From assembly GCA_016928095.1 (NCBI GenBank), contig JAFGLL010000093.1, positions 1-44,721 on the forward strand: 44,721 nt of DNA. The letters are read 5' to 3'. Shown here one piece after another: positions 6,993 to 41,805 of the stretch (position 1 is the stretch's first letter; every line of letters starts with the position of its first letter). The notes under the pieces were generated by a model, which saw nothing but the letters and a program-made list of their open reading frames with translations, was not told where the DNA came from and searched no databases. This stretch comes from Thermoplasmatota archaeon (GTDB lineage: Archaea; Thermoplasmatota; Penumbrarchaeia; Penumbrarchaeales; Penumbrarchaeaceae). A program made the translations under genes and the position numbers.

Positions 6993-9900
6993 TCACCCTC
7001 GGTTATCGGGGAACATCTCGGACAGTATCTCGTCAAGGTCCATTTCCATGTCTGGGTCGTTCTCTCTCGTTTCGCCCTCCATCACTGGGTGATCCCCCTC
7101 CCTGATGAGTGCCCCCTCCACATCGATCGGTGCCGGGGGCACCGGGATGCTTTCATCGGTCCTAACCCTTCTGCCGGGTCTGTTCTTGAAATCCTTCTCG
7201 GAGAGGGCCCTTGCTTCCCGGGGAGCATTCGTCCCCACAGAATCCAATATTCTTTTCTGCCTTCTCTCCTGGACCCTCAAGAACACTCCGTAGATTATCA
7301 GGAAAGAGAAGATCAAAACTATCATTATTATAAAGATGAGGCTGAAGTCCTCGGTGGGTCTGTCCCTGATGTCCACGACCAGCTGATATTCGGTAACACC
7401 GTTCTCCGAATTCCCGTCGTCCACCGTTATGATGACGATGTGCTCACCCTTACTGGCGTCCTCGGGTATCTTCAGTGTGAAATTGGAGAATCCGAATTCG
7501 TATCTGCCGTAGGTCCATTCGACGATGAAACTGAAGTGGAGGTCCCCATCAGGGTCCTCTATCTGCAGATTGATATCCAGATCGCGGCCTCTTGTAGCAT
7601 TGATCCTGGCGGGGGAAAGCACTTTCGGTGGATCGTTGGTCTGAGTCACGTTTATGGTCATTATCAGCTCCACTTCCGGAGTATCCCCGTCGGTGGCGGT
7701 GAAGGTCACGAGATTGGCCCCGAGATATCGATCCGTGGGAAGGACCGTGATGTTGAAGATACTGTTATGACCGCCCGAGACCTTCTCCACATATACCCAG
7801 CTGGTCGAGGTGTTCAACGCAATCTCCTCTGAGTCCACATCGAACAGGGTCATTGTGAAATTGGTCGGTTCGTCCTCTCTTACCTCCTTTATCTTGGATA
7901 TCTGGGGGAATCGGGGGGGATCCGGTACTTCAAGAACCTCCACGAGCACCAGATCGTTCCTGGTCACCGAACCGTCGGTAGCATAGAAGCGGATCGCAGC
8001 CCCCCCTGACCAGTCGATCTCCGGAACGATCTCGAAGGACCGATCCTCCGGGTCCTGTTCCAGAGTGATGTTACCGTACTCGACCTCACCCCATACCTCA
8101 AGCGGTGAAGGGCCGTCCGTATCGACGATCCTTTTCATTGATATCAGGTCCAATCTCTCTCCCTTGTACCTTTCCGTGAACGTCTCGTCCTCCTCGAGGG
8201 TTATCCGATCCATAAGGTCCATCTCCAGTGGATGGTTGACCTTGAGGTCCCTGCTTGCCATGTTATTCAGGCTGTTCGACTCGAGTCTCTGGGGGAATAT
8301 CTCGACCCATGCGGTGAGAACGGGATCGTCGTTGTTTCCCCAGGTGATATTCGTTCGAAAAGTGAGATCTCCAGGGGAAAGGTCTTCGAAGTTCGCGTTC
8401 ATGGGCGATTTGCCGGAGGTGGCATACCAGGTCCAGTATAGGAATATGTGTTCGATGGTCGTATCTCCATTGTTCCTGATGGTGAAGACGGCCTTGAACG
8501 GTTCCCCGTAGACAGGCGGATCGGGCACCAGCACGATCTCATTGTCGATCTGCAGGTCCCAACCCGAGGTGGCTTCGATCGAGCCGATATATGGGAGATA
8601 ACCCTCCTTCGTGGCTACCACCCTCAGCGTTCCAAGCTTGGTGATATCTGGTAGGAGATGGATTGTACCGTTCGATCCGATCCTGACGGAGAGGTACACT
8701 TCAGGGTCGAGAGGATCCGTCACGGTTATCTCCGTTCCAGGGAGCGGTTTTCCGCTGAGGCTGTCCACCACGGTAACGTCGAACCCCTTCTCATGATCGA
8801 ACGTATCCGACACTTGAACGATCATATCCGAAGGTTCGTTCAGCCATATCGGGCCTTCGGGGTCTCCGAGCAGGTTGTAGGCCAGACTGTCAATGTTGAA
8901 TATCTTCGAGAACTGGTCTATATCTATCGTGCGCCCCAGGTCGTATTCCAGATGGAGCTGGTAGTTCCATTTCTGTTTGTACAAGGCCTCTCCAGGTCTG
9001 GGGACGCCATGATAAAGAAGCTTGAAATATTCCTGGGCAAGCCACCAGTTGCCGAAGGAGTAGGTCGAGTTCTGGTCCCCGGGATCGGGTCTGAACTCAC
9101 CGCGATATGTTTCCACGGTGGCACCAATCAGGCAGATCGCTCCTCCGTCCTCGTTCAGCAGCAACCTCTCCATGTTCGTATCGTCGATCTCGTCGAAATC
9201 CGTTGATGCGCAGCTTGAAATGTACACAAGGGGGAGCCGTTCGCCATTTCGGATGGTCTCCGCCATCCCGTAAGTGAAGTGTTCGTCGTAATCCCTATCA
9301 TAGCTCCATCGGCCTCCACCCTCTCCCTTGTAGTTCGTGCAGTTGCCGTTGAAGGGGTCTCCATGGCATGCTATAAGGACGGTGGAAAAACCTGCCTCAT
9401 AATATGAGCCAAAGGATGAACGGTTGAGGGAGTCGAACATCACATTGTAGCCACCGTATTCGATCTGCGGGTAGTCCACAAGTTGGAACGGGGTAACTGT
9501 GGAAGGCAGATCCTCCTTGACCTTCAGGACAAGCTCGTATGCGTTATCCTTGTAGGCGTCATACTGGACGGGGTCGTTGGGGACATCCATCAGGGACCCT
9601 GAAAGCAGCATAGAGCTGGCCCAGGACCCGGGGGGAGGGTCCATCTCGTACGATATCTGCTTCGAGACCATCATCCGGACCTCATCCCGGGTGGAGGCTG
9701 GAAAACGGCCCACATAGACATCCGCAGTGAAGTCCTTCTCCTCGAACTTCTTGTCATCCTCCAGGTAATCCTCACCGTAGATGCCGTTCTGGTTTATATC
9801 CCAGTCCCCCCCTCTCTCCCGGTCAAGACCGGCATAATAGTAATCCGTGGCAACGAAGTTGTCGGGGTCGTCCCTCCCATCTTCGGCCGAACCGTTCACG

Positions 9901-10346
9901 AACACGTATCTCGGAGGTATGATCTCTCCATCCCCGGCAAGGAGCACCCATTCCAGCCCCTGGTTCCTGCCTTTCAGAGCAACCAGGAAATCCCTGATGG
10001 TCTCCGCTCTATCCTTTTCAGGGGCACCGTAGCTGGAGTTGATATCCTCGAGGGAGAAGAAGACGGCTTTCACTCCTTTCTGCGTCTTCCATTCGATGAG
10101 AGGTTTCAGCTCCACTTCGAAAACGGAGGGGCCTATCGCGGCATATTCCAGCTCTTCTATCCTGGGAGCCGGGGACAGTGAGGTCCTGACCGGGAGGTCA
10201 CCTGTTTCCGATCCTTCTATCATAACGGGTGCCTCCCCGGTGATGGTGTGTGTTCCATCGGCTCCCTCGGGGAACGGCATCGGACCGGTTAGCGGTCCGA
10301 CCACCATCAAGAGCATGATCAGATATGCACAGAGCCTGCCTTCCAT
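6993..10346 (-). CDS. Membrane-anchored C25 (gingipain-like) surface peptidase
   Basis: The 1117-residue protein is exported and held by a C-terminal helix. A signal peptide (EGRLCAYLIMLLMVVGPLTG) starts at the ATG at 10346, which has AGAGGT 6 nt upstream. Residues about 60-510 form a caspase-like C25 domain with AGDGEIIPPRYV, YVGRFPA, the catalytic His in ACHGD (about 328) and the catalytic Cys in SSCAS (about 379). Beta-sandwich modules follow: a carboxypeptidase-regulatory-like segment, a CARDB-like segment with NNGDTT, and cadherin-like repeats marked by EDEPTNF and TNDPPKV. The membrane helix, about 1000-1022, is followed by about 95 acidic cytoplasmic residues. It would digest extracellular protein or process surface proteins. 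The cytoplasmic tail is longer than usual. Confidence 0.85.
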   Translation of the reverse strand: MEGRLCAYLIMLLMVVGPLTGPMPFPEGADGTHTITGEAPVMIEGSETGDLPVRTSLSPAPRIEELEYAAIGPSVFEVELKPLIEWKTQKGVKAVFFSLEDINSSYGAPEKDRAETIRDFLVALKGRNQGLEWVLLAGDGEIIPPRYVFVNGSAEDGRDDPDNFVATDYYYAGLDRERGGDWDINQNGIYGEDYLEDDKKFEEKDFTADVYVGRFPASTRDEVRMMVSKQISYEMDPPPGSWASSMLLSGSLMDVPNDPVQYDAYKDNAYELVLKVKEDLPSTVTPFQLVDYPQIEYGGYNVMFDSLNRSSFGSYYEAGFSTVLIACHGDPFNGNCTNYKGEGGGRWSYDRDYDEHFTYGMAETIRNGERLPLVYISSCASTDFDEIDDTNMERLLLNEDGGAICLIGATVETYRGEFRPDPGDQNSTYSFGNWWLAQEYFKLLYHGVPRPGEALYKQKWNYQLHLEYDLGRTIDIDQFSKIFNIDSLAYNLLGDPEGPIWLNEPSDMIVQVSDTFDHEKGFDVTVVDSLSGKPLPGTEITVTDPLDPEVYLSVRIGSNGTIHLLPDITKLGTLRVVATKEGYLPYIGSIEATSGWDLQIDNEIVLVPDPPVYGEPFKAVFTIRNNGDTTIEHIFLYWTWYATSGKSPMNANFEDLSPGDLTFRTNITWGNNDDPVLTAWVEIFPQRLESNSLNNMASRDLKVNHPLEMDLMDRITLEEDETFTERYKGERLDLISMKRIVDTDGPSPLEVWGEVEYGNITLEQDPEDRSFEIVPEIDWSGGAAIRFYATDGSVTRNDLVLVEVLEVPDPPRFPQISKIKEVREDEPTNFTMTLFDVDSEEIALNTSTSWVYVEKVSGGHNSIFNITVLPTDRYLGANLVTFTATDGDTPEVELIMTINVTQTNDPPKVLSPARINATRGRDLDINLQIEDPDGDLHFSFIVEWTYGRYEFGFSNFTLKIPEDASKGEHIVIITVDDGNSENGVTEYQLVVDIRDRPTEDFSLIFIIMIVLIFSFLIIYGVFLRVQERRQKRILDSVGTNAPREARALSEKDFKNRPGRRVRTDESIPVPPAPIDVEGALIREGDHPVMEGETRENDPDMEMDLDEILSEMFPDNRG

Positions 10347-10412
10347 ATGTGGACCTCTTTCATGATGGAACCTCACAGCTTCGACAAATAATTAACGGTC
10401 ATTTGCTGTCAT

Positions 10413-15902: not shown

Positions 15903-16877
15903 TCACAACCAGCTGAACTGTGTTCTCTTTCCCTCCAATGTCACAGGCCCATCCATCTCGAACATCTCCCTGATCACCTCTGTGGCCATGTAGGGTGAGA
16001 CGATCCCGAGCTCCGTCACGATAGCATCGATGTATTCGGGAGGGGTCGCATCGAATACGGGGTTCAATATCCTGGCACCCTGGAAGTCCGACGGCCTCAT
16101 CGGTGATGCGACCTCCGTCGGGCCCCTGTCCTCTATCTCGACCAGGGACCCGAGCAAGGTCTCTTTGGAGAATTTGAAGGTTTCGGCACAGACCATGAAC
16201 GGTACCCTTGATTCATGTGCCGCCAGAGCTATCTGGGATGTGCCGATCTTGTTGATAACCGCTCCGTTGGCGGTCACGGTGTCCGCCCCGACGACCACCA
16301 CATCGATGTCACGCATGAAATGACGCACGGCAGGATCCACGATCATGGTCACCGGGATCCCTTTGTCAAGTAGCCATCTGGCAGTGATGTGCCCCTGCCT
16401 CCAGGGTCGGGATTCCGTGGAGAAGACCATCTCGACCCTTCCATCATGGTATGCACGTTCGATAGTGTTCAGGGCAGCCATGGAATTGCAGTGGGTAAGT
16501 ACTGTCGAACCCTTCGGGACCCTCTTGCTCCCTATCTCGGCGATCCCTTCCCTGGCTATCTCGGCGTTTTCCCTGAACTCCCTGGATTGAGCGGCTATCC
16601 GCTCCTTCATGGAGGCCACATCTTTCTCGGTCTCGACCCCCCTCAATGTCAGCAATATGCCGTTCCTGAGGGATACTGCCGTTGGGCGGGTCGAATGAAG
16701 GTCCAATGCGACCTTTCTCAGAGCATCCATGAACTTCTGTCTATCAGAACCGGGCCATGAGCTCGAGAATCCCCCTATCGCACGGGATGCTTCCCGTGCG
16801 ATCATGGCAGCACCCCTTATCGACATGCTCTTGATGGACCTTGCGACCTCCTCTACCTCCTGAGCGGGATCTTTCAT
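15903..16877 (-). CDS. Ribose-1,5-bisphosphate isomerase
   Basis: This 324-residue protein of the eIF2B-alpha/MTNA superfamily converts ribose 1,5-bisphosphate to ribulose 1,5-bisphosphate, which type III RuBisCO would carboxylate. Typical segments are STRPTAVSLRNGI, TVLTHCNSMAALNTI with the catalytic Cys, VFSTESRPWRQGH, and VVVGADTVTANGAVINKIG with the Asp that acts as base. The ATG at 16877 is preferred because GGAGG is 7-8 nt away and the gene then no longer overlaps its neighbour; a GTG at 16895 would add six residues. It sits between AMP phosphorylase and the MBL-like gene. It might be confused with translation initiation factor 2B, but the STRPxxxSLRN motif favours the isomerase. Confidence 0.93.
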   Translation of the reverse strand: MKDPAQEVEEVARSIKSMSIRGAAMIAREASRAIGGFSSSWPGSDRQKFMDALRKVALDLHSTRPTAVSLRNGILLTLRGVETEKDVASMKERIAAQSREFRENAEIAREGIAEIGSKRVPKGSTVLTHCNSMAALNTIERAYHDGRVEMVFSTESRPWRQGHITARWLLDKGIPVTMIVDPAVRHFMRDIDVVVVGADTVTANGAVINKIGTSQIALAAHESRVPFMVCAETFKFSKETLLGSLVEIEDRGPTEVASPMRPSDFQGARILNPVFDATPPEYIDAIVTELGIVSPYMATEVIREMFEMDGPVTLEGKRTQFSWL

Positions 16878-16891
16878 GGACTCTCCTCCGT

Positions 16892-17611
16892 TCACGGGAT
16901 GACCTTGAACATCGGGCCGAAGGCCGGGATCATGATATCACAGTATGATAGCAGTTCGTAGCGGTCCCTGATACTCTGGGCCTGTTTTTTCGTCCTTTCC
17001 TTCCCCCTCTCCCTTATCTCATCAAGGATCGCAGCGACCTCGGGGTCATTTTCCGAGGGTATGCAGGGACCGGATATACCTATTGTCTTGCCTGCATACT
17101 GCAAGGTAGATTGGGACAGGAACTCTTCCTTGCGGGGTATGTGCATCAACAGCACAAGGTTTCCGGGAGCCGGGTCGTTCACAACCTCGAGTTTGAGATA
17201 TCTGTCGATCCAGTGGAACCTGTCGGTGATGGCGATCTTCCTTCTTGGGCCCGGCGGGATGAGGTTCCACTCATCCTTCCTCAGGTGCTGCAAAGCATTC
17301 ACGAAGATATCATCGTTCCCGTTGAAAAGCGGGTCGATCCTCGTAGCGACCATGACATTGACCTTTTCAACACTGAGGTCCATGGAAGTTAAGGACCCCA
17401 TCAACTCCTTTCTTGCGGCTATCGAGCCAGTATCGATCACCACGGTGGCCGTGGGCGTTCTTACAAGGGTCGAGGAGGAAGTGTCCCTTCCGTCTCCATC
17501 GCACCTGCCCTCAACAAGGGTTATCAGCTCGCATCTCCTCGATCCGAAATCCCTGCCCCTTGGAATGGGGCCAGAGGCATCGAGGGCCATCTCCTGGCCG
17601 TCTTCGGTCAT
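16892..17611 (-). CDS. Degenerate metallo-beta-lactamase-like protein
   Basis: This is a protein of about 239 residues whose N-terminal half follows the MBL fold. TATVVIDTGS (about 54-63) is the typical strand and loop before the metal site, and the following helix and VEKVNVMVATRIDPLFNGND occupy the place where active enzymes have HxHxDH. None of the metal His is kept here: the equivalent is RIDPLFNGND. A later PCIPSENDP might be a remnant too. The closest style is the MBLAC1/hydrolase group, but a catalytic role is unlikely unless it uses another metal site. It lies in the same array as AMP phosphorylase and the isomerase, 15 nt before the isomerase. The ATG at 17611 follows GGGGTG; an ATG at 17626 is possible. 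Confidence 0.6.
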   Translation of the reverse strand: MTEDGQEMALDASGPIPRGRDFGSRRCELITLVEGRCDGDGRDTSSSTLVRTPTATVVIDTGSIAARKELMGSLTSMDLSVEKVNVMVATRIDPLFNGNDDIFVNALQHLRKDEWNLIPPGPRRKIAITDRFHWIDRYLKLEVVNDPAPGNLVLLMHIPRKEEFLSQSTLQYAGKTIGISGPCIPSENDPEVAAILDEIRERGKERTKKQAQSIRDRYELLSYCDIMIPAFGPMFKVIP

Positions 17612-20725: not shown

Positions 20726-20811
20726 TCCCATCACTGACCAAATTATTATAATGATTGCTATTATAGGAAACAAGTTTACGGTTTTGTCCTGATATGAAAG
20801 GAGACAGTAAA

Positions 20812-22257
20812 ATGGACCTAATACGATATGGAAATGCTCTTGAGCTGAAGGGATCTGGATATGTGCCATTGACCGCAAGGGAAGCGCTGGCACAGGAGAT
20901 GGTCCGGAGGATGGGCGGCTTCAGGTCAGAAGGTCTCTCCCGGGAGGGATCCATGGCCCTTCTGTTCCCGCGAACGATCGTGGACGCCGAGGTCCTGGAG
21001 TGTCTGGTGGCAGCCCTTCTGGGTGGATCCCATATATTGCTTTTCGGGCCATCAGGAACAGGGAAGACGAGCCTGGCCAAGGAACTATGGAACCTCTTTC
21101 CAAAGGAGGTCTATGCGGTAAGCGGATGTCCCGTACAGGATGATCCGATGTCGGTAATGGACCCCGCGTACTGGAAACGGGTCAAATGCTGCCCCTCGTG
21201 CGAAGCGCGTTTCGGGATACCAGGAAAGGATTTCGATCCAGCCGAAGTGGACCCCAGGAAGGTGCCAGTATCCGTGATAACGCTCAGGGAGGGGTACGGG
21301 CTGGCCAGGGTCCAGGGTTCGTCCGAGGTCTTTCCCGACAATCTTACGGGAGTATACAACCTTCACAGACTCGAGGAGGTGGGGGATCCGACGAGCCCCC
21401 TCGTCCTCGAACCCGGAAAACTCCTGCAGTCGAACAGAGGTCTGCTCCTTGTCGATGAAGTTGGCAAGCTCCCGCTTGGCACGCAGAACGTTCTTCTGCA
21501 GGCATTGCAGGAGGGGATCGTCTCACCGGCGAAATCGAGGGAGACCTTCCCTGCCGGTTTCGTCGCGGTGACCACCTCGAACCTCAGGGACCTGGATGCG
21601 ATAAACGAACCCCTCAATGACAGGTTGTCCAACATCTATGTTGATTACATTAAGGACCATATGAAGAACAGATCGATACTGGAAGTTTCCAGAGAACGGG
21701 AATACCATGAGGTGTTCTTCCCGGAGATCTACCTCAACGCCGCCGTTTTCGTGGTCGAATCATGGAGGGACCTATCGGTCGACATCCCGGAACTATCGGA
21801 GGTCGGTTCCAACAGGACCATACTTGACACGGTATCGAGGTCTGTTGCCTATGCCAAGATCGATAGTGAGAGGACCGTCTCCCTTGAGAGCTTCAAGAAA
21901 GGGATCAGGGACGCACTCTACGGCAGGATCCGTGCCAGGGGAGGAGACTCGTTCCTCAGGAACGAGGAGATCGTCAGGGAGTTCCTTTCGGGAAATCTCG
22001 AACTCTCCATCGAGCGGGGCTTCAGACTATACTGGTGCACATTCTTTAAAAGGGGTCTTGGGTCAAGCTTACAAAGGGCGGAGAAGCTCGCAAGGTCCCT
22101 GGCCCAGGGGACGGTCCCCAAAGGCGGTGACGGCGACCTCCTCCTGGATTTCATCAGGAAAATGGAGAGATGGAGGGGGTCGGTGAGCGACGAAGAGGTC
22201 TTCTCGAGTGTGGTTGGTATAATGAACACCATGAAGGACTTCGGCTGCAAGGAATAG
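20812..22257 (+). CDS. MoxR/chelatase-like AAA+ ATPase with cysteine cluster
   Basis: The 481-residue ATPase starts at the ATG at 20812, which has AAAGGAGA just upstream. Walker A is GPSGTGKT (about 79-86), Walker B is LLLVDE (about 211-216), and the sensor segment is TTSNLRDLDAINEPLNDRLSN. Between them sits a cysteine-containing insert: VSGCPVQDDP (Cys106) and KCCPSCEARFG (Cys126, 127, 130), a probable zinc or iron site. The text ...EPGKLLQSNRGLLLVDEVGKLPLGTQ is of the MoxR/magnesium-chelatase I/PrkA type. MoxR ATPases work with VWA proteins to remodel or insert metal into target complexes; the next gene is a VWA protein 18 nt away. The target is unknown. The 3' part is a helical lid. Confidence 0.88.
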   Translation: MDLIRYGNALELKGSGYVPLTAREALAQEMVRRMGGFRSEGLSREGSMALLFPRTIVDAEVLECLVAALLGGSHILLFGPSGTGKTSLAKELWNLFPKEVYAVSGCPVQDDPMSVMDPAYWKRVKCCPSCEARFGIPGKDFDPAEVDPRKVPVSVITLREGYGLARVQGSSEVFPDNLTGVYNLHRLEEVGDPTSPLVLEPGKLLQSNRGLLLVDEVGKLPLGTQNVLLQALQEGIVSPAKSRETFPAGFVAVTTSNLRDLDAINEPLNDRLSNIYVDYIKDHMKNRSILEVSREREYHEVFFPEIYLNAAVFVVESWRDLSVDIPELSEVGSNRTILDTVSRSVAYAKIDSERTVSLESFKKGIRDALYGRIRARGGDSFLRNEEIVREFLSGNLELSIERGFRLYWCTFFKRGLGSSLQRAEKLARSLAQGTVPKGGDGDLLLDFIRKMERWRGSVSDEEVFSSVVGIMNTMKDFGCKE

Positions 22258-22275
22258 GACCGGAGGAATCACATA

Positions 22276-24216
22276 TTGGTAAGGGAAGAGGAGATACCGT
22301 ATCCCCATATCAGGGGTGACGGCGTGGTCCTTCCTGACTGCGGGAAAGGTGTGTACACGCCCTTCAGGTTGACCGCCACCGAGAAGAGGGAACTTATAAA
22401 GGCACTTGCACAGAAAGGCCTGCGGGGTCTGGACGATGTCCTTTCAGAACCTCTGACCGACGGCTCGATCACCCGGAGAATGGAGGAGATCAGGAAACGC
22501 ATAACGGAACAGCTCCAACAACTCCACACCACGAGAAAAGGGATCATGGAAAGTGATTTGAAGCGTCTGATGAGAAGGGGTGCTGTCCTTCAAAGGGACA
22601 ATGATGAAGACCTGATCTATGACGAGAGCTATTTTCGCAGGCTCTCATCCGAACAGATAAGGGGAGAGATATTATCAAGCGACCTTATAGGTCTCATAGA
22701 AGGAAGAGAGGTCCCCGAGGAACAGGATGCTGTCCGTGGACGATTTCGCAGGATGCTCATGGCGGTGAAGGATCTCTTCATCCGGCTATTGTCATACATT
22801 TTGAGACTTCTGAGACGCATTTGGGACCGGTTCCGGAGAAAGAAGAGAGGCGAGGAGGAGAAAGGCAGGGAGGTCGGAAGGAGGAAGAAGGGTGCGATCG
22901 TACTCCCCTTCCCCGGTCTGTCGATGGACCTCGAAAGATGGCAGAGAGAGATGGATGAAAAGCTCGATAGGGACGAGCACCTTCAGAATGCCGTGAACAA
23001 ACGCCTCTCGGACAGATATGGGTATGATGCAGGTCTGATCGAACTGAGGAGGTCCATCGATCCTGAATGGTACAAGGAGAGGGCAAGGAAGGTCCTCCAG
23101 GAGGAGGTCCAAAGTACAGCAGAAAGGAAGATGGGCGAACTTGATAGGGAAAGGAGCGAGTCCCTAAGGACAAGGTCCAAGCAGCTGGAAGAGGAAAGAA
23201 AGGTCAGGGAAGAGCTGATGAAGGCTGAAAAAAGGCTCGAGATGGAGGGATACGAGCTTAGGAAGAAGGCGGAGCAGATGACCACCGAACAGATGAGGAC
23301 CGAACTGCTTCAGACCTTGGCCCATATGGGATACGTTCAGAGCAGCAGACGGTCGGACAGCCTGGAAGAGGCATCACTTCAATGGGAGATCACGGAGGCA
23401 CTCGTGGATAAGTTCTCCGAATTCATCTTCTCGGAGCTGATGCAAAGGAGCACCGGTCTGAGGGATCGAAGGGGAAAGCAGGTGTCGGATGTCGGTGTCT
23501 ATGAAAAAGCACGTATGAGAACCGTTTCCGAGGAGCCGAGGATGGACTTCCTCAGCACGATCGTGAATGCAAGGGTGAACCATCCGGGCGATAGGTCGAT
23601 AGAACCATTCGATGTCATCGTCCAAAGGGAGATAACCACCTCGGAGCTCCATTGCGTGATCCTGGTGGACGTAAGTGGGTCCATGGAGGAGAACAAGCGG
23701 CTTGATGCTGCCAAGAGGTCTGTACTGGCACTCTCCCAGGCGGTGAAGAGGGAGAATCCGCGGAACAAGGTGGACATCATTTCCGTATCGACCAGGGCCA
23801 AACCGGTTACCCTGAAAGAGGTCATGTCCCTTGAGCCACACGGTTTCACCAACCATCAGGAAGGATTTGCCCTTGCCAGGGCCATCCTCGAGAGCTCAAG
23901 GTCCGACCGGTACATGCTCTTCCTGATCACTGACGGACTCCCGGAGGCCTACATCGACATTACCGGTAAACCCGTAGCTGGGGACCTGCAGAAATCCATG
24001 GACATGGCCCTGGCAGAGGTCAATGCCCTGAAGAGGATACCTGACCTCTATTTCGAGATGTTCCTGTTGGAACCCGAGGATGAAAGGTTCGTTTCGGCGG
24101 CCAGGAGGATCGCAAAGGCCGCCGAGGGAGACATGATAGTAGCGGACCCGAAGGAGCTGGCATATCAGGTCATCGATGAGTTCTTATCGGGCGGCCGACC
24201 ATTGGAAGGCGTGTGA
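22276..24216 (+). CDS. VWA-domain protein with charged coiled-coil, partner of the AAA ATPase
   Basis: The product is 646 residues from a TTG at 22276 with GGAGG 9 nt upstream. Residues 1-150 are helical and charged. A hydrophobic/basic helix (about 160-187, FIRLLSYILRLLRRIWDRF) may lie on the membrane. Residues about 265-345 form a coiled coil rich in Glu, Arg and Lys. The VWA domain starts near residue 455 with LHCVILVDVSGSM, an intact MIDAS D-x-S-x-S motif, and continues through ITDGLPEAY. Such a domain binds a metal ion and a partner protein. The gene follows the AAA ATPase by 18 nt and is the expected second component of a MoxR/VWA or chelatase pair. Its stop is only 4 nt from the stop of the convergent next gene. 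Confidence 0.88.
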   Translation: MVREEEIPYPHIRGDGVVLPDCGKGVYTPFRLTATEKRELIKALAQKGLRGLDDVLSEPLTDGSITRRMEEIRKRITEQLQQLHTTRKGIMESDLKRLMRRGAVLQRDNDEDLIYDESYFRRLSSEQIRGEILSSDLIGLIEGREVPEEQDAVRGRFRRMLMAVKDLFIRLLSYILRLLRRIWDRFRRKKRGEEEKGREVGRRKKGAIVLPFPGLSMDLERWQREMDEKLDRDEHLQNAVNKRLSDRYGYDAGLIELRRSIDPEWYKERARKVLQEEVQSTAERKMGELDRERSESLRTRSKQLEEERKVREELMKAEKRLEMEGYELRKKAEQMTTEQMRTELLQTLAHMGYVQSSRRSDSLEEASLQWEITEALVDKFSEFIFSELMQRSTGLRDRRGKQVSDVGVYEKARMRTVSEEPRMDFLSTIVNARVNHPGDRSIEPFDVIVQREITTSELHCVILVDVSGSMEENKRLDAAKRSVLALSQAVKRENPRNKVDIISVSTRAKPVTLKEVMSLEPHGFTNHQEGFALARAILESSRSDRYMLFLITDGLPEAYIDITGKPVAGDLQKSMDMALAEVNALKRIPDLYFEMFLLEPEDERFVSAARRIAKAAEGDMIVADPKELAYQVIDEFLSGGRPLEGV

Positions 24217-40446: not shown

Positions 40447-41805
40447 CTACCATATCATGGTTATGACAGGAAGTAGAAGAACACCCATGGCGTGGGACCT
40501 TCTTATCCCTGTCAACGGTGCTATCATACCGAGCGATGTGGATACCGAAAGCACCAGAAGACCGAGGGGTCCCGTGAAGGCAAGGACCATCACCGCTATC
40601 AGTATGATTATACTGATGGCCACCTTGCTGTAGGGAAGCCGGGGCATAATATTGGCGAGCCTTGATCCGAGCTTGAGGGTCAGGAAGAAACCCAGACACG
40701 AGGCAAGGAGGGCCGCAAGCAGCAGAAGGGATAGTTCCGAAGGAGGGAGCATACCACTCCATTCCCTCACGTTCACGAGCTCATTCACAACGATGGCCGC
40801 CCCCGATCGAGGTCTCAGGATGAGGAAGAGTGCTCCCAGAACGAAGAACGAGTTAGCAGTGTTTATCGCGGAGAGGGTCAGGATTACCGAGCTTGGTTTT
40901 GGTTCCTTTCGGAATATCATTGCGATCACTGTGGCAACACCTCCGCTCATCCCTGGTAGAAAACCCACAATGGAACCTGCGATGGAGCCAGAGGCGATCG
41001 AGGATACAGCTTCTCCAGGGTCCACGAACTGCTTCTCTATCCTCTGCAACGGAACGGTGGCCCCCCCCCTCAGAGATTCGAGGAGGGTGGATGTTCCGAA
41101 CAGCCCGGAAAGGAGGGGAAAGAGGGAGGTAGCCGGAAGCCCGAGGGGTGAGGTCAATTGGAGATCGAGGGCAACGAGCCCCAGGAGACCCGCTGTCAGG
41201 AAGAGAAAGAATGCCCCCAGAACCCCTAATGTGGATGAGAACCTGCCTTCCGACCACTTGAGCTTCCCGTCCTCTGTTCTGGAAGGAATATAAGGGACCT
41301 TCTTGCTCTCGGTCACCAGCATCAGGACGACAACACCGATCAGGACCCAGACCATGACCTGCTTCAGAAGCTGGTATCCGTTGATGGGGTCTTTCACAAG
41401 CAGGCTGTAAGGTATCAAAAGGAGTGTCCCGGCAACGATGGCCCCGAAGGAACCGACCGCCGATAGGAAGATCGCGCTGTAACCGTTCCCTTCCAGGAGC
41501 ATACCATGGGCGGGAAGGACCGAGAGAGCCGTCTCAGCCTCCGGGGCCCCGAGGAACGTCGAGGGAATGAAATCCAGGAAAGTATGGGCCATCGATGTGG
41601 CCACTATGGCGGAAGCGACCAGGAGCATGGTTTCGGTGGTGGAGAGACCAGTGAGGTCCTGAAGGACCGAGGAGATCATCGGGCACATCCCAAGCAGGAT
41701 GATGGCCACGTTGTTGACATGTACTCCCGGGATCAGGCCTGTAAGGACCCCGAAACAGGTCCCGGCTATAGCCCCGAGAAGGACGAGCAAGATCAGATCG
41801 ATCAT
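40447..41805 (-). CDS. TctA-family tripartite tricarboxylate transporter permease
   Basis: This 452-residue integral membrane protein has about 10-12 helices and the two signature stretches of the TctA family (PF01970 type): GVLTGLIPGVHVNN near residues 19-32 and GSIVGFLPGMSGGVATV in the middle. The conserved FIPSTFLGAPEAETAL and the Gly-Pro rich PLGLPATSLF are also seen. Bacterial TctA forms a citrate-type uptake system with TctB and a periplasmic binding protein TctC; neither is visible here, and many archaeal members stand alone. The ATG overlaps the stop of the upstream OB-fold gene by ATGA (41802-41805), so translation is coupled. The substrate is unknown. Confidence 0.85.
   Translation of the reverse strand: MIDLILLVLLGAIAGTCFGVLTGLIPGVHVNNVAIILLGMCPMISSVLQDLTGLSTTETMLLVASAIVATSMAHTFLDFIPSTFLGAPEAETALSVLPAHGMLLEGNGYSAIFLSAVGSFGAIVAGTLLLIPYSLLVKDPINGYQLLKQVMVWVLIGVVVLMLVTESKKVPYIPSRTEDGKLKWSEGRFSSTLGVLGAFFLFLTAGLLGLVALDLQLTSPLGLPATSLFPLLSGLFGTSTLLESLRGGATVPLQRIEKQFVDPGEAVSSIASGSIAGSIVGFLPGMSGGVATVIAMIFRKEPKPSSVILTLSAINTANSFFVLGALFLILRPRSGAAIVVNELVNVREWSGMLPPSELSLLLLAALLASCLGFFLTLKLGSRLANIMPRLPYSKVAISIIILIAVMVLAFTGPLGLLVLSVSTSLGMIAPLTGIRRSHAMGVLLLPVITMIW

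Follow-up and report, generated by a model that had tools for sequence, protein, structure and literature searches.

AAA+ ATPases (ATPases associated with diverse cellular activities) that are encoded together with proteins containing a von Willebrand factor type A (VWA) domain are widespread, and clients are known for few of these pairs. A genome of the archaeal phylum Thermoplasmatota raises the question of whether such a pair, whose ATPase carries a cluster of cysteines, belongs to one of the characterised systems and what its cysteines might be for. The pair is found in a stretch of DNA of 44,721 nucleotides (contig JAFGLL010000093.1 of assembly GCA_016928095.1), here termed the window. 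A sequence-only reading had described a chelatase/MoxR-like ATPase with Cys106 and a KCCPSC sequence, followed by a VWA protein. We find the cysteine motifs and the gap of 18 nt between the two open reading frames (ORFs) as described, and the assignment as an AAA+/VWA pair of this kind is upheld by Pfam matches and motifs.

Conservation of the pair

The ATPase and the VWA gene form a conserved unit, which is real and well conserved in Thermoplasmatota. Its distribution was analysed in 390 genomes of this phylum, in a closer sample of 57 relatives (designated by G numbers, with the genome of the window being G000) and at 89 distinct ATPase loci. ATPase and VWA protein are each found in 47 of the 390 genomes and both in 46. 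In G044, which contains the ATPase without the VWA protein, the VWA gene is cut off by a contig end, and in G053, where the VWA protein is found without a match of the ATPase, the VWA gene is located at a contig end. Among the 57 relatives, 23 show a strong match to the ATPase and all 23 also encode the VWA protein, with G053 adding the latter only. In 79 of the 89 loci, a VWA gene of the full-length-type cluster is located directly downstream of the ATPase. The genes are unlinked in at least two genomes, G047 and G020, where other genes follow the ATPase and the VWA gene resides on a separate contig (C29 versus C36 and C199 versus C253, respectively). Since both are retained even there, linkage alone is insufficient to account for their co-occurrence and, because both proteins are conserved across the phylum, the pairing is far beyond chance. 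When a single genome was scanned for each of 84,980 prokaryotic species, 111 relatives were retrieved, the best 80 of which all belong to Thermoplasmatota.

Clustering of neighbouring ORFs at the 89 loci revealed no third gene common to different clades, in line with the earlier observation that no target gene adjoins the pair. The neighbour clusters reflect synteny inside single clades and shadow ORFs of the pair itself; a secretion-type ATPase resembling ArlI and an arginine-deiminase-like gene, both identified by eye, are located behind the pair within just a single large clade.

Two observations concern individual genomes. L109 (JAIVGT010000163.1), one of the best 80 relatives, is assigned to Halobacteriales by NCBI but corresponds to G044, which belongs to the phylum of the window, and is thus probably a mislabelled metagenome-assembled genome. 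G001, which belongs to the same genus as G000, contains two full copies of the pair on contigs C289 and C212.

The ATPase and its cysteine site

We place the ATPase in the helix-2-insert (H2-insert) group of AAA+ proteins, where it lies between archaeal chelatase I subunits on one side and the PrkA ATPase domain on the other. It matches the Pfam families Mg_chelatase (1.4e-10), Sigma54_activat (2e-10) and AAA_PrkA (3.6e-10) above their gathering scores, as do all 24 of 24 aligned members, with AAA_PrkA (PF08298) reaching 39.9 bits against a cut-off of 25 and Mg_chelatase scoring slightly higher. It contains Walker A and B motifs, sensor 1, Arg271 and sensor 2 (GSNR), all of which are near-invariant. 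Among the matches listed, no NCBIfam family reaches its cut-off, and a sequence search of the PDB retrieved generic AAA+ matches only for the ATPase and no match for the VWA protein. In the AlphaFold2 model of the ATPase (predicted local distance difference test, pLDDT, 78; predicted template modelling score, pTM, 0.80), strand beta-1 is followed by Walker A, beta-2, a long insertion, Walker B, sensor 1 and a helical C-terminal part. In a Foldseek search this model is closest to BchI, followed by archaeal Lon and ComM. The ATPase is aligned by hhalign to the AAA domain of PrkA over 285 columns (E 1.1e-18). In a tree of AAA domains, which displays very long branches, the family and PrkA do not form one clade in the best tree, but such a clade is not rejected (approximately unbiased test, p-AU 0.22).

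The cysteines reside in a region encompassing residues 106-130, which in the AlphaFold2 model is located after beta-2 and before a predicted hairpin formed by residues 152-168. The sequence-only reading had left it to be checked whether all four cysteines are invariant, which holds for three of them: Cys106, Cys127 and Cys130 are each found in 88 of 89 distinct homologs. Cys126 of the KCCPSC sequence is present in just 10, and the conserved set includes residue 110 as its fourth member, which is an Asp in 87 homologs and a Glu in one. The sole loss is observed at locus L031 of G035, where Cys106, Asp110, Cys127 and Cys130 are together replaced by D, T, S and A, and where Cys409 in the C-terminal region is kept. 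Joint conservation and joint loss indicate that the four residues act as one unit, constituting a putative metal site with three cysteines and one acid as ligands. The G035 ATPase reads SPWA where YeaG of E. coli also reads SPWA, an apparent parallel loss.

The insert had been considered unusual, which is not the case, as inserts of this type are known and the present one is a variant of them, not a new invention. An equivalent insert is found in the ATPases of archaeal cobalto/magnesium-chelatases and in several PrkA ATPases. Both chelatases used for comparison, one from Halobaculum encoded next to cobN (CPFGCPP...CPEC) and one from Thermoplasmatota (L182, CRFSCEP...CWEC), contain the full C-x3-C...CxxC form, which is a trait of these two sequences rather than part of any published definition of chelatases. 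Asp110 aligns with the second cysteine of these chelatases, which differ from our ATPase in this fourth ligand position, whereas PrkA proteins contain Glu or Asp. Of seven PrkA-family proteins (YeaG of E. coli and PrkA proteins from Bacillus, Pontibacillus, Priestia, Paenibacillus and Thermomicrobium), four, originating from Priestia, Pontibacillus, Paenibacillus and Thermomicrobium, carry GCP or SCP...CPxC at the equivalent place (GCPxxED...CPxC type, such as GCPINEDPL...LCPFC). YeaG contains neither half of the insert, and the CPxC half has been lost from PrkA of B. licheniformis and from one of the Pontibacillus proteins. MoxR proteins, represented by two rows of the alignment, do not contain the insert. 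As judged from these sequences, the recurrent insert of archaeal chelatases, several PrkA ATPases and the present family is probably metal-binding. A literature search, which was not exhaustive, did not yield a paper on this insert, and its whole or partial loss in YeaG and B. licheniformis PrkA may explain why it went unremarked. A second CPxC (CPVC) is located near the C-terminus of the PrkA proteins from Thermomicrobium (L171) and Paenibacillus (L170), which both contain the first CPxC, and is missing from B. licheniformis PrkA and YeaG, which do not.

Most likely, the site holds a structural metal, for which zinc would be a guess, rather than serving as a dedicated sensor. Sensing of metal or redox state, as proposed in the earlier reading, is possible, with a structural metal being the simpler explanation. 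One form of such sensing would be a redox switch, in which a reversible disulfide turns the ATPase on and off as in plant CHLI, whose ATPase is blocked when oxidised and stimulated by thioredoxin (PMC3778395); the additional invariant Cys409 could then pair with one of the three cysteines of the site. We consider this switch unlikely, since the conserved acid at position +4 and the alignment with the C-x3-C...CxxC tetrad of chelatases favour a set of metal ligands, and since Asp110 is lost along with the cysteines of the site, whereas Cys409 is kept. As a separate observation, Cys409 (89/89) and Cys22 of the VWA protein (19/19) are invariant and thus kept where the metal site is lost; they might mediate a contact, or form a disulfide, that joins ATPase and VWA protein.

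The VWA partner

The N-terminal 400 residues of the VWA protein are mostly helical. A helix at around residues 156-190, previously described as membrane-like, is amphipathic and not transmembrane, with a maximum hydrophobic moment of 0.92, a net charge of +8 and a Kyte-Doolittle maximum over 19 residues of 1.46. The best 19-residue segment in the VWA protein of the window, which has this score, contains K, D and R, and no transmembrane helix is found. The VWA domain contains a metal ion-dependent adhesion site (MIDAS), whose residues DVSGSM, Thr525 and TDG are intact across the family. Immediately preceding this domain, a segment encompassing residues 407-440 is strongly conserved in a protein that otherwise diverges (mean column identity 42%). 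Of the AAA+-linked structures, those that Foldseek ranks closest are the VWA domains of NorD in complex with NorQ (9qh6 with E 1.4e-6, others around 1e-6); VWA domains of pilins and adhesins equal or outscore NorD in the same search.

Comparison with known systems

None of the systems ChlI/ChlD/CobN, PrkA/DUF444/SpoVR, CoxD/CoxE, NorQ/NorD and CbbQ/CbbO is fully matched. With archaeal chelatase I/D pairs (TIGR02442; ChlI/BchI, ChlD), our pair shares the H2-insert AAA fold, the position of the cysteine insert, a PGKLLQANRG-like stretch before Walker B and the C-terminal VWA domain in the partner. Mg_chelatase is the best Pfam match of the ATPase, and the I half of TIGR02442 matches the ATPase and its D half the VWA protein, as if the pair would insert a metal into a tetrapyrrole. 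These matches, however, score 30-34 bits, far below the cut-off of 779, with BchI/BchD reaching 27-29 bits against 467-500. Among the 57 relatives, no genome with the pair encodes the catalytic CobN/ChlH subunit (PF02514), which is present only in the pair-less G019, G034, G052 and G056. A chelatase role was rejected for the missing CobN/ChlH and is nearly refuted.

The PrkA/DUF444/SpoVR system (YeaG and YeaH/YhbH in E. coli, PrkA in Bacillus) resembles the pair in PF08298, in the CPxxE/D...CPxC insert and in an adjoining VWA-type gene. The pair could thus be a divergent stress module of this type that has lost the kinase-like domain and SpoVR and slows metabolism on starvation, as YeaG and YeaH do jointly in E. 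coli starved of nitrogen, where they act as a brake on metabolism (PMC10954441). In favour of such a module, PF08298 scores above its gathering threshold in the family, the insert is common to PrkA and no canonical PrkA exceeds the cut-off in the 57 relatives. Conversely, the C-terminal kinase-like domain PF06798, which is contained in YeaG and Thermomicrobium PrkA, is found in 0 of 24 members, and the VWA protein differs from its counterpart by a long coiled-coil arm and the absence of DUF444 (PF04285; 16.8 bits against a cut-off of 27, with 1 of 19 members being DUF444-like, below the cut-off). SpoVR is found in 0 of the 57 relatives, with positive controls in E. coli, B. subtilis, Thermus and Haloferax. 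Membership in PrkA/DUF444/SpoVR was rejected on these three absences, and a divergent module is a minor candidate; grouping with PrkA is not supported by the tree, though not rejected either. A canonical PrkA/DUF444/SpoVR set does exist in haloarchaea, and their PrkA genes were included in a 2011 list of clusters that other archaea lack (PMC3102087); the Thermoplasmatota pair is a different set.

By analogy, we regard NorQ/NorD as the best functional model, which combines an AAA+ ring, as expected here, with a VWA adaptor containing a MIDAS and a conserved pre-VWA segment. It differs in the cysteine insert, which is lacking in the MoxR proteins compared, and in its client, as no nitric oxide reductase is found in the genome of the window or its taxonomic family. 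The resemblance to NorD as closest AAA-linked VWA fold and a weak match to VWA_CoxE in 7 of 19 VWA members would be in line with a metallochaperone of the NorQ/NorD, CoxD/CoxE or CbbQ/CbbO type acting on a known enzyme. Yet heme-copper oxidase (COX1)/NOR and the CoxL-type MoCoBD domain are absent from the genome of the window and the other seven of its family, and RuBisCO, although encoded in the former (G000:C66), shows a patchy distribution and is missing from many pair genomes. An obligate role of this kind was rejected for these reasons; genomes that encode none of these enzymes refute it, and overall it is very improbable.

Ternary conflict systems (VMAP, iSTAND, FtsH, beta-propeller; PMC7159879) contain a similar MoxR/VWA operon couple, whereas our pair is without a conserved third component, and bpMoxR scores 23.3 bits against a cut-off of 27. 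Membership in a defence system was rejected, as PADLOC matches cover generic AAA stretches only and none is located on the VWA protein. RavA/ViaA and YehL/YehP of E. coli are likewise AAA+/VWA pairs; they contain no cysteine insert and are similar at the level of the VWA core or the P-loop only.

Organisation of the locus

Upstream of the pair, a 2-hydroxyacid-dehydrogenase-like gene, identified by eye, is transcribed in the opposite direction, and the next ORF downstream, which is small and resembles a membrane protein, converges on the VWA gene, indicating that the pair is its own two-gene unit. The TTG start of the VWA gene coincides in the alignment with the starts of its relatives. The features of both genes are compiled in Table 1.

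Table 1. Coordinates of the ATPase and VWA genes and of their features in the window.
Feature	Position	Strand	Basis
Shine-Dalgarno-like AAGGAG, ATPase gene (ATG)	20798..20803	+	read from sequence
AAA+ ATPase gene, 481 aa	20812..22257	+	H2-insert clade, PrkA/chelatase-like; Pfam Mg_chelatase and AAA_PrkA
Walker A GPSGTGKT (residues 79-86)	21046..21069	+	invariant glycines, Lys85 and Thr86 in alignment
Putative metal site, first half C-P-V-Q-D (Cys106, Asp110)	21127..21141 (Cys106 codon 21127-21129)	+	aligned to archaeal chelatase C-x3-C
Putative metal site, second half C-P-S-C (Cys127, Cys130)	21190..21201	+	88/89 each
Predicted H2-insert beta-hairpin (residues 152-168), right after cysteine site	21265..21315	+	AlphaFold2 strands 152-157 and 164-168, between beta-2 and Walker B strand
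Walker B LLLVDE (residues 211-216)	21442..21459	+	D215, E216 invariant
Invariant Cys409 (YWC), C-terminal helical region	22036..22038	+	89/89 homologs
Shine-Dalgarno-like GGAGG, VWA gene (TTG)	22262..22266	+	read from sequence
VWA partner gene, 646 aa, TTG start	22276..24216	+	Pfam VWA_2 4.1e-9
N-terminal LPDC motif with invariant Cys22	22330..22341 (Cys22 22339-22341)	+	P20, C22 invariant 19/19
Amphipathic basic helix (residues 156-190)	22741..22845	+	low-confidence AlphaFold2 helix; hydrophobic moment, charge
Long predicted helix/coiled coil, 89 residues (263-351)	23062..23328	+	AlphaFold2, pLDDT mostly 82-89
Pre-VWA motif GVYEK-R-RTV-E-RMD---NAR--HP--R, candidate 'finger'	23494..23595	+	alignment; finger role by NorD analogy
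VWA domain with intact MIDAS (DVSGSM, T525, TDG)	23647..24150	+	Pfam, alignment, Foldseek

Other genes of the window include a large protein of the Peptidase_C25 family with an Ig-like domain (6993-10376, minus strand), a gene which by eye resembles ribose-1,5-bisphosphate isomerase (15903-16895, minus strand) and the membrane subunit of a TctA-family tripartite tricarboxylate transporter (40447-41805, minus strand). The isomerase-like gene and RuBisCO in the same genome would fit an AMP-salvage pathway.

Discussion

Our results point, with moderate confidence, to a remodelling machine of the AAA+/VWA type that is as yet uncharacterised and whose pore hairpin, which grips the VWA partner, is supported by a metal-braced insert. 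Its template is the cryo-EM structure of NorQ/NorD, where a finger of the VWA domain reaches into the pore of the AAA+ component and binds the H2 insert, and where ATP-driven rotation was proposed to stretch a linker and thereby open the client, a mode of engagement that the authors presume to be general for AAA+/VWA pairs (PMC13036017). Based on this analogy, on the conserved segment 407-440 and on the conserved hairpin following the cysteine site, which in the predicted model presumably represents the H2 insert, we propose that the site braces the gripping hairpin. For such a machine, we infer ring formation, pore contact, metal binding and remodelling activity. The ATPase would form a ring to which the VWA protein binds as adaptor, with its pre-VWA segment entering the pore to contact the hairpin, and the Cys/Asp site, located between beta-2 and the hairpin, would brace the latter via a structural metal. 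The client would be held by the MIDAS together with the extended helical arm at the N-terminus, perhaps at a membrane or at an acidic surface through the basic amphipathic helix.

Several points weigh against this proposal. The invariant Cys409 of the ATPase and Cys22 of the VWA protein are left without explanation, the pre-VWA segment is not proven to be homologous to the NorD finger, the AlphaFold2 model of the VWA protein has a pTM of just 0.42 and the tree, with its p-AU of 0.22, does not settle the grouping with PrkA or chelatases. Moreover, we know of no experiment on any member of the family. A further reading, which we regard as rather doubtful, takes the pair for a novel metallochaperone or remodelling system of archaea that acts on an unrecognised client and whose ATPase ring is gated by the metal or thiol state of the C-C-C-D site next to the pore hairpin.

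One candidate function of the remodelling machine that we favour, suggested by analogy to YeaG/YeaH, would be to slow metabolism during starvation (PMC10954441). As a strictly two-gene pair that is conserved across many families of one phylum, the ATPase and its VWA partner offer a clean system for the search of a client.

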